The notes under the pieces are model-generated. The model was not told the DNA's origin. It worked only from the letters and a program-made list of their open reading frames with translations, and ran no database searches. From Gemmatimonadaceae bacterium (GTDB taxonomy: Bacteria; Gemmatimonadota; Gemmatimonadetes; Gemmatimonadales; Gemmatimonadaceae), in contig JACMME010000102.1 of NCBI GenBank assembly GCA_014379205.1, positions 1-36,506 on the forward strand: DNA of 36,506 nucleotides, read 5' to 3'. The position numbers and the translations under genes are program-made. Within the stretch, counting starts at the first letter, position 1. Each line of letters opens with the position of its first letter. Positions 604 to 6,190 of this stretch are shown piece after piece.

Positions 604-710
604 GCCGATTGCGGATTGCGGATTGCTGACTGGTCCCGGGTTACCGGGACCTTTTTGTTGCCCGCGCTGGATCGCAACAGCAGATCCGCAATCCGCAATC
701 CGCAATCGGC
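604..710. repeat. 21-bp perfect inverted repeat of heptamer units around a terminator
   Basis: The left arm (604-624) contains three head-to-tail heptamers of the type GATTGCG. The right arm (690-710) is its exact reverse complement, with three CCGCAAT units (686-706). The 65 bases between the arms contain the clpX terminator hairpin. Both arms lie in the clpX-lon gap, and the right arm ends 15 bases before the lon start codon. A transcript reading through the terminator could fold into a 21-bp stem just upstream of lon. Function is unknown. Confidence 0.85.
632..660 (+). terminator. Rho-independent terminator after clpX
   Basis: A perfect 8-bp stem, GGTCCCGG (632-639) and CCGGGACC (644-651), closes a 4-base loop and is followed directly by TTTTTGTT. 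It sits 30 bases after the clpX stop and in the right orientation to end the clpX transcript. Confidence 0.85.
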
Positions 711-4416: not shown

Positions 4417-4507
4417 CTGGTCCGCTCCGCTAATACGCCAGCATTCAAGTCCGATGCATGCCGTCGAATCTCTTCGCAAATGCCTGTTCCGCCATCTCCG
4501 CAAGGCA

Positions 4508-4703
4508 AGCATCAATGACGAAGGGTTATACGTATGCTTCGGATGGGGCCGGATCAAACGGATCGTTCCGCGGGTGCGAAGAGCTACGTCACCGAAACGA
4601 GTTGATCCGATTAATCCGTTCCATCCGATGCATCCGGTCGAACCTTTGAACCTTGATGCTCGGTTGCGGCATTTCTCCGGGCCAGCATCGATGACGAAGG
4701 GTT
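4508..4703. repeat. Pair of 20-bp direct repeats (one mismatch)
   Basis: The repeat units are 4508-4527 and 4684-4703, both ending in ATGACGAAGGGTT. The preceding 20-25 bases also look related (TTCCGCCATCTCCG against TTGCGGCATTTCTCCG). The copies are 156 bases apart and flank the 9-base periodic stretch. Confidence 0.7.
4605..4658. repeat. Short degenerate array with a 9-base period
   Basis: Units begin at 4605, 4614, 4623, 4632, 4641 and 4650. The first four share ATCCG followed by four variable bases; the last two drift to AACCTTTGA and ACCTTGATG. No reading frame with gene-like features uses it. Confidence 0.65.
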
Positions 4704-4754
4704 TAATCGAGGAGTATCTCGCTTTCTCGGCCTATTCAGCTCTGGAGCAACAAA

Positions 4755-5597
4755 ATGGCTTTCCTCCCACTGCGCCAGCTCCCCCTTTCACCATCCGCGT
4801 CGGTCCTGGATGCCTGGCTGGAGAAGCTCGCCGATGCGCTTGCTGATAACACCGTCGACCGGTCATTGGTTTGCCGAACGACCCTTTGCGAGATCGCCTA
4901 TCCGGCATACGCTTCCAACTGGGAAACTGCGATCGAGGATAGCGGTCTTCCGCTCGGGACGCGCGTCGGCCTGCTAGCGCTTGACCCGCGCAACGTAACT
5001 TTGGAGCCGGAATATTACGCAGAGTGCGACGACGTTCGGTTTCAGAAAGTCAAGCCGCTCTTGTGGCTGTGGTATTCCTTCGACAGGACGGTAATGGGCG
5101 GACAGAATGTCGACGCAGGGGTTCGGCTGCGTCGAATGCTTGCTCCGCTGATCTTCAAGCGGTGCGGGCGCAACTTCAAGGCGTTCCAGCACGTCGAGTT
5201 CAGCTTCGGCTACAACCTCGAGGTTGGCGATGACGTCGTCATTCATCGCCACGTTCTCCTGGACGACCGCGGCGGGATACTGCTGGGTAACAAAGTCTCG
5301 GTGAGTGACTATGCCAATATCTACAGCCACACGCACAGCATTGTTGATCAGCGCGAAGTGACCAATGTGCAGACTGTCATCGAGGACGGCGTTCGGATAA
5401 CGTATCACGCTACCGTTCTCGCAGGGGTTCATGCCGGCACGCAGGGAATGATCGGCGCCATGGCCGTTGCGACCAAGAACGTGCGCCCGTACCACGTGAA
5501 CGTTGGTATTCCCGCAAAGAGCATCACCGTAAAGCCAAACGCGCCGACTCCAAGCGATATTTTATCGACGAGTCAGAGAGTAGCGCATGAAAAATGA
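4755..5597 (+). CDS. Left-handed beta-helix (hexapeptide) acyltransferase
   Basis: A 280-residue protein whose C-terminal half (about 140-260) has the imperfect hexapeptide periodicity of the LbH acyl/acetyltransferases, for example VGDDVVIHRHVLLD, LGNKVSVSDYANIYSHTHS and the closing NVGIPAKSITVKP. The histidines in YSHTHS are likely catalytic, transferring an acyl group from acyl-CoA to a hydroxyl of a sugar or similar acceptor. The N-terminal about 130 residues are not recognised; a WLWYSF segment could contact the membrane. The ATG at 4755 has GGAG about 8 bases upstream. The gene stands alone on this strand, next to repeats. Substrate is unknown; envelope or polysaccharide decoration is an inference from the genes further along. 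Confidence 0.8.
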   Translation: MAFLPLRQLPLSPSASVLDAWLEKLADALADNTVDRSLVCRTTLCEIAYPAYASNWETAIEDSGLPLGTRVGLLALDPRNVTLEPEYYAECDDVRFQKVKPLLWLWYSFDRTVMGGQNVDAGVRLRRMLAPLIFKRCGRNFKAFQHVEFSFGYNLEVGDDVVIHRHVLLDDRGGILLGNKVSVSDYANIYSHTHSIVDQREVTNVQTVIEDGVRITYHATVLAGVHAGTQGMIGAMAVATKNVRPYHVNVGIPAKSITVKPNAPTPSDILSTSQRVAHEK

Positions 5598-5721
5598 GTT
5601 CGCAGCTCGCAGTTCGTAGTTCGTAGTTCGCAGTTCGCAGTTCGTAGTTCGTAGTTCGCAGTTCGTAGTTCGCATTCGCAGTTCGCATTCGCAGTTCGTA
5701 GTTCGTAGTTCTCAGTTCGCA
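5598..5721. repeat. Degenerate heptamer tandem array filling a convergent intergenic gap
   Basis: The array has 18 units, 16 of seven bases and two shortened to six (TTCGCA). Nearly all are GTTCGCA or GTTCGTA; one is GCTCGCA and one GTTCTCA. It starts on the base after the acyltransferase stop. It ends at 5721, and a partial unit GTTA (5722-5725) supplies the stop codon of the converging Nudix gene. The two unit types are interspersed rather than grouped. The array leaves no room for a conventional terminator. Confidence 0.92.
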
Positions 5722-5722
5722 G

Positions 5723-6190
5723 TTACATGTCTACCCGCAAAACGTCCTCCACTACTCCAGCATCACCGGTACGCAGCAGAAATGCGATCTCCTCAAGGGC
5801 GACGCGTGAACGCGGCCAGTTGTATCTGCCGGTCGCATCTGGGACCGACAACCATTCCGAGGCTTTATGTTCGGGGCCAAGTGCCACGCTCGAGCTGCCC
5901 TCGACGACTGCCGCGAAAACAACTCCGAGCATGATCGTGGTGAGCTTGTGCAGGTAGAAGGGCTGTACGGTAATGGAGTACAATCGCTCAATCTCGAGAC
6001 CGGTCTCCTCGCGCACTTCGCGTCTCGCGGCGTCCTCGGGCCGCTCTCCCGTCTCCACCCGTCCATGCACCGTCTCCCAGGAATTTGTGCAGCGGGTGCC
6101 GGGCCCGCGCTGTAGAACCAGAACTTGCCAATCATCTCGCACGCGTCGCAGCACATAAACGTCCACTACGCCGGCGGAGACCGACGTCAC
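5723..6190 (-). CDS. Nudix hydrolase
   Basis: A 155-residue Nudix-fold pyrophosphohydrolase. The complete Nudix box is present: the glycine opening GRVETGE is followed by seven residues and then REVREETGL, matching G-x5-E-x7-REUxEExGU. The acidic residues of this box bind the Mg2+ that cleaves nucleoside diphosphate-X substrates. QRGPGTRCTNSWETVHG upstream of the box resembles NTP/dNTP pyrophosphatase members of the MutT/NudB type, but the substrate cannot be read from sequence. The start overlaps the stop of the upstream secretion ATPase (ATGA), so it is translationally coupled to it. Its stop codon is part of the heptamer array. Confidence 0.88.
   Translation of the reverse strand: MTSVSAGVVDVYVLRRVRDDWQVLVLQRGPGTRCTNSWETVHGRVETGERPEDAARREVREETGLEIERLYSITVQPFYLHKLTTIMLGVVFAAVVEGSSSVALGPEHKASEWLSVPDATGRYNWPRSRVALEEIAFLLRTGDAGVVEDVLRVDM

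Follow-up and report, generated by a model that had tools for sequence, protein, structure and literature searches.

The window analysed here is a stretch of 36,506 nucleotides from contig JACMME010000102.1 of a Gemmatimonadaceae bacterium, whose genome is termed G000 below. It contains two convergent genes, encoding an acyltransferase-like protein and a Nudix hydrolase, and the space between them is filled by tandem heptamers (Table 1). The acyltransferase-like protein has orthologues at 66-75% identity in many Gemmatimonadaceae, and its C-terminal half is hexapeptide-like by eye; a Pfam search with this protein gave zero matches. The space preceding its gene (4417-4754) has imperfect direct repeats, GCATCAATGACGAAGGGTT near 4509 and GCATCGATGACGAAGGGTTT near 4684, as well as GGATC/GATCC-rich 9-bp repeats resembling a decayed inverted bracket.

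Table 1. Genes, repeat arms and other features of the two intergenic spaces discussed (positions in the window).
Feature	Position	Strand	Basis
Left arm (GATTGCG)2.9, B family, after the clpX-like stop	607..626	+	TRF, pair listing
Intrinsic terminator GGTCCCGGGTTACCGGGACC-TTTTT, in the core between the B arms	632..656	+	Sequence; relatives' cores
Right arm (ATCCGCA)3.4, complementary to the left arm, before the lon start	684..707	+	TRF, pair listing
Acyltransferase-like gene, 280 aa, TGA abuts the array	4755..5597	+	ORF list, orthologues
18-unit heptamer array, GTTCG[CT]A type, A family, right-arm orientation	5598..5721	+	Sequence, TRF
Partial unit GTTA, holding the reverse complement (TTA) of the Nudix TAA stop	5722..5725	+	Sequence, ORF list
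Nudix hydrolase gene, convergent with the acyltransferase-like gene	5723..6190	-	Pfam PF00293 (E=8.3e-19), orthologues in relatives

The first-pass annotation described eighteen units of GTTCGCA/GTTCGTA type between the two stop codons, without a spare base on the left (the TGA ends at 5597 and the first unit begins at 5598) and with a partial unit that provides the TAA of the Nudix gene; all of this can be read in the sequence. Direct reading gives units 1-9 as GTTCGCA, GCTCGCA, GTTCGTA twice, GTTCGCA twice, GTTCGTA twice and GTTCGCA, and units 10-18 as GTTCGTA, GTTCGCA, TTCGCA, GTTCGCA, TTCGCA, GTTCGTA twice, GTTCTCA and GTTCGCA. Exact GTTCG[CT]A units account for 14 of the 18 (seven with C and seven with T), the others being two 6-mers that lack the G and two point variants. 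TRF reports the array with period 7, 18.6 copies and a score of 179. Neither an intrinsic terminator (GC-rich hairpin and T-tract) nor a sigma-70 promoter was found within 5400-5900, in line with the initial statement that an ordinary terminator is absent. A LexA-type GTTC-N7-GTTC box would require period 11, whereas the period is 7 here, and we set this reading of the array aside. The array lies between two stop codons, so it does not have the start-codon placement of TAACTGA-type translational control repeats.

The same two genes are convergent in several relatives, and in most of these cases the gap is -4, 3, 13, 20 or 34 bp. Longer spaces were found in genomes G003, G014 and G015, while the orthologous space of genome G033 is 72 bp long and holds an inverted pair of another heptamer (AACGAGG type). 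With only -4 to 34 bp at this site in most relatives and another heptamer pair in G033, the array is specific to this lineage, and the unit occupying the site turns over. The convergent space of G003 (L196 2326-2526) has an imperfect inverted repeat of ~27 bp at its boundaries (GCAACTGAACTGGCGGGAGGCGTCAGA / TCTGGCGCCTCCCGCCCGTTCAGTTGC) and no tandem units.

Such arrays are plentiful elsewhere in G000. Three consecutive copies of GTTCGYA were matched 96 times genome-wide, at ~40 sites, and the backwards control gave 0 matches; the possibility, considered in the first-pass annotation, that arrays of this kind are absent elsewhere can therefore be discarded. The suggested spread of the repeat within the genome, together with point change, is supported by these ~40 sites, the intermixed C and T variants, and the 6-mer slips. 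We sampled 474 kb of the genome around GTTCGYA sites and called genes with a simple codon-usage script. Exact tandem arrays with at least three copies numbered 98 for period 7, seven for period 4 and zero for the other periods from 5 to 15, frequencies that are those of the sample and not genome-wide rates. Second-order Markov controls produced zero arrays of period 6-15 with at least three copies, which together with the backwards control excludes chance as the origin of the array. Heptamers outside the sample selection were also common in the 474 kb, e.g., GATTGCG (14 arrays) and GGGAATC (12 arrays). A looser threshold gave 165 arrays; 145 of them (88%) were non-coding by our gene calls, in a sample of which 86% is coding DNA. 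The arrays lie mostly near gene 3' ends.

Arrays are often paired: a unit occupies the left edge of the intergenic space, the right edge carries the reverse complement of that unit, and the enclosed core is mostly ~30-150 bp long. Inverted pairs of one unit within 300 bp occurred 27 times against 6.4 expected, and direct pairs four times. The polarity of the pairs is fixed: the A family had 17 pairs of the form GCGAACT...AGTTCGC and 0 reversed, and the B and C families had five pairs each, in one form. This polarity follows the edge of the intergenic space, not the gene strand. Left arms matched one another 126 times in the same orientation and 12 times in the opposite one in G000 (92 and 0 times, respectively, in G033). 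Scarce units such as AACCAGG, AAACGGG and ATCCCCC were each common to both arms of one site. A heptamer-independent test found complementary edges in 19% of the spaces of G000 and 34% of those of G033, compared with 3-5% when edges were swapped; these percentages apply to loci picked, in both genomes, for carrying an array and not to the genomes as wholes. In 5000 permutations, swapped partners never matched as well as own partners. The cores are not shared in this way, as all-against-all BLAST of the cores gave residual heptamers only, except for one pair of long, doubtful spaces. Different units can be layered in G000, e.g., at L147 4082-4179, L155 5071-5123 and L164 996-1189; B units (GGATTGC) tend to lie outside, by the gene, and A units (GAACTGC) inside, by the core. 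In OFX_bin.8 (L050 2226-2367), arms of more than 40 bp carry the variants GGGGTCA, GGAGTCA, GGAGTCA and GGGRTCA in the same order on both sides, as though either arm were a copy of its partner.

The gene context of the paired spaces bears on the earlier proposal that the array is a bidirectional barrier, halting the transcripts of both convergent genes. Spaces with complementary edges are concentrated between convergent genes, both in G000 (15 of 31 convergent and 1 of 35 divergent spaces, Fisher p ~2e-5) and in G033 (14 of 15 and 1 of 19, Fisher p ~2e-7). They also fold far better than shuffles, with a median z of about -5 to -12. Enrichment and strong folding, like the convergent placement of the array itself, are what a barrier would predict, but mere tolerance would equally produce convergent enrichment. 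The window array, moreover, consists of one arm only, oriented as a right arm and extending over the entire gap between the two stop codons; the left edge of this gap has no partner arm, and the array folds worse than shuffles on both strands (z of +3.4 and +2.2, or +3.8 and +2.6 for the array alone). It has no terminator, and it is missing from the orthologous gene pairs. A conserved barrier function of the window array is thus not supported, and we consider the barrier quite unlikely.

The window also provides a paired example, in the space between the clpX-like gene and lon, where two complementary arms of the B family flank a terminator (Table 1). This space (602-725) folds with a z of -10.5. 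In other genera the same space often has a terminator-like hairpin, including a hairpin-T-run core in several relatives, with different arms or none; this suggests the addition of arms to native cores and not the insertion of complete elements. The arms found at clpX-lon in relatives were GGGTAGTG, the period-8 GGACGGTA, CCACGCT and GAGATTGCTT, or were absent.

The distribution of these units beyond G000 is patchy. Among 59 genomes of the same family or order, three copies of GTTCGCA were found only in G033 (184 matches) and G002 (one match), and samples of 20 kb (one contig each) from 18 relatives had few heptamer arrays. The 28-mer made of four copies of GTTCGCA also occurs in scattered genomes of Acidobacteria, Synergistaceae, Chloroflexaceae, Verrucomicrobia and others, and in one viral contig among 2.9 million. 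Arrays of the AACTGCG class in Acidobacteria PL23a (L116 2514) and Chthoniobacterales (L033 1945-2357) appear to form pairs with a polarity opposite to that of Gemmatimonadaceae, with one example each.

We favour, with a probability of about 0.7, the view that the array grew in place, is particular to this lineage and belongs to a genome-wide class of non-coding heptamer tandem repeats; the route of growth is the inferred part. A short seed at the edge of the intergenic space would gain length 7 bp at a time through replication slippage or unequal recombination, and point changes would arise in units and then be amplified. In paired sites, template switching at a quasi-palindrome (hairpin-templated correction) could maintain the complementarity of the arms, and selection favouring a long hairpin at the 3' end may contribute. 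The matching of the arms could alternatively stem from selection acting on hairpins in RNA or DNA, without templated copying. In the window, an arm without a partner may have kept growing until it took up all the room between the two stop codons. Most likely the array is simply tolerated in a convergent space and has no further function.

Plain slippage alone does not account for the exclusivity of period 7 or for the fixed polarity. Rehm et al. relay a proposal that a heptamer corresponds in length to the DNA that a polymerase holds at its active site (PMC4692102). A bolder and rather unlikely possibility is that an active, unit-independent process, working in several unrelated phyla, writes 7-bp repeats at intergenic edges with fixed polarity and keeps the edges complementary, the window array being a one-armed product of it.

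Other explanations fare worse. The units might be binding sites of a DNA- or RNA-binding regulator, as proposed for the TAACTGA repeats of Beggiatoaceae (PMC4679880), which would fit their regular spacing, the single dominant unit per genome and the fixed polarity. Yet several distinct units act alike within one genome, and orthologous sites carry different units. Most arrays are located close to the 3' ends of genes, and few paired forms occur in divergent spaces, which are where promoters are found; we regard regulator sites as very unlikely. The chances are slimmer still for a mobile element of the REPIN or MITE type, with a transposase acting in trans. Dispersed intergenic inverted arms of fixed polarity do recall REP doublets (PMC3116915), but Y1_Tnp/RAYT (PF01797) had 0 matches in G000, a provisional absence as this draft is ~92% complete. 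The cores are largely unrelated among copies, several relatives have terminator-like cores at clpX-lon with differing arms, and the 28-mer was seen in a single viral contig of 2.9 million. A template-carrying polymerase (a telomerase-like reverse transcriptase) adding 7-nt units to 3' ends would explain period-7 exclusivity and fixed polarity, and RVT_1 genes are present in G000, but the idea is hardly credible given that the array-rich G033, estimated as 100% complete, has no RVT_1 match. We also rejected viral spread (one viral contig only), an element with a conserved core or cargo (cores largely unrelated), and a permissive loss of the hairpin nuclease SbcCD, because 59 of the 59 relatives as well as G000 have SbcD-like matches, mostly below the curated cut-off.

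The closest known parallels to this heptamer class are the GGGAATC and GGGGA(C/T)T repeats of Xanthomonas and Nostoc, which Rehm et al. (2015) read through G-quadruplexes (PMC4692102). Those of xanthomonads are ~90% intergenic, variable in length, and lie near the ORF on their 5' side whatever its strand; convergent inverted pairs number 70-75 cases per Xanthomonas genome and are rare between divergent genes (PMC4692102). The arrays of G000 likewise have a heptamer period, are dispersed, mostly intergenic and near the left-hand ORF, and form convergent inverted pairs of fixed polarity that are scarce between divergent genes. Even the unit GGGAATC is there, as the C family. In contrast, the dominant units of G000 (GCGAACT/GTTCGCA and GATTGCG) have no runs of three Gs and should not form G-quadruplexes, several families of units coexist, units turn over at an orthologous site, and the window array is one long arm in right-arm orientation. 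Both strands of GTTCGCA and GTTCGTA lack G-tracts, which places the window array outside the GGGNATC subtype (Rehm 2015).

TAACTGA direct repeats, described by MacGregor (2015) in Beggiatoaceae, Cyanobacteria and Bacteroidetes (PMC4679880), are also heptamer arrays located between genes, and their occurrence across distant phyla is likewise patchy. In Beggiatoaceae they lie mostly just upstream of start codons (PMC4679880), unlike the paired inverted arms of G000, which favour convergent spaces. The REPINs of Bertels and Rainey (2011) are extragenic inverted doublets around a spacer, capable of forming hairpins (PMC3116915). This also describes the inverted arms of G000, except that these are heptamer arrays of variable copy number, with cores that are largely unrelated and no RAYT/Y1 transposase found. 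Short tandemly repeated repetitive (STRR) heptamers were reportedly described in cyanobacteria by Mazel et al. in 1990. They are heptanucleotide tandem repeats dispersed in the genome, as here, with different units. The Calothrix heptamers are mentioned in PMC4692102.

What is new here is that units not expected to form G-quadruplexes obey Rehm-type placement rules, and that units turn over at orthologous sites. The over-representation of heptamers in bacteria has long been reported without an agreed mechanism, and its best-studied case was interpreted through G-quadruplexes. Because units that should not form quadruplexes are placed, oriented and paired in the same way, quadruplexes are unlikely to explain heptamer arrays in general. 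If the unit-independent writing process were real, gene ends would be bracketed by renewable long hairpins whose architecture is conserved while their sequence is not. The different units found at one orthologous site in two related genomes make the growth and turnover of these arrays directly testable.
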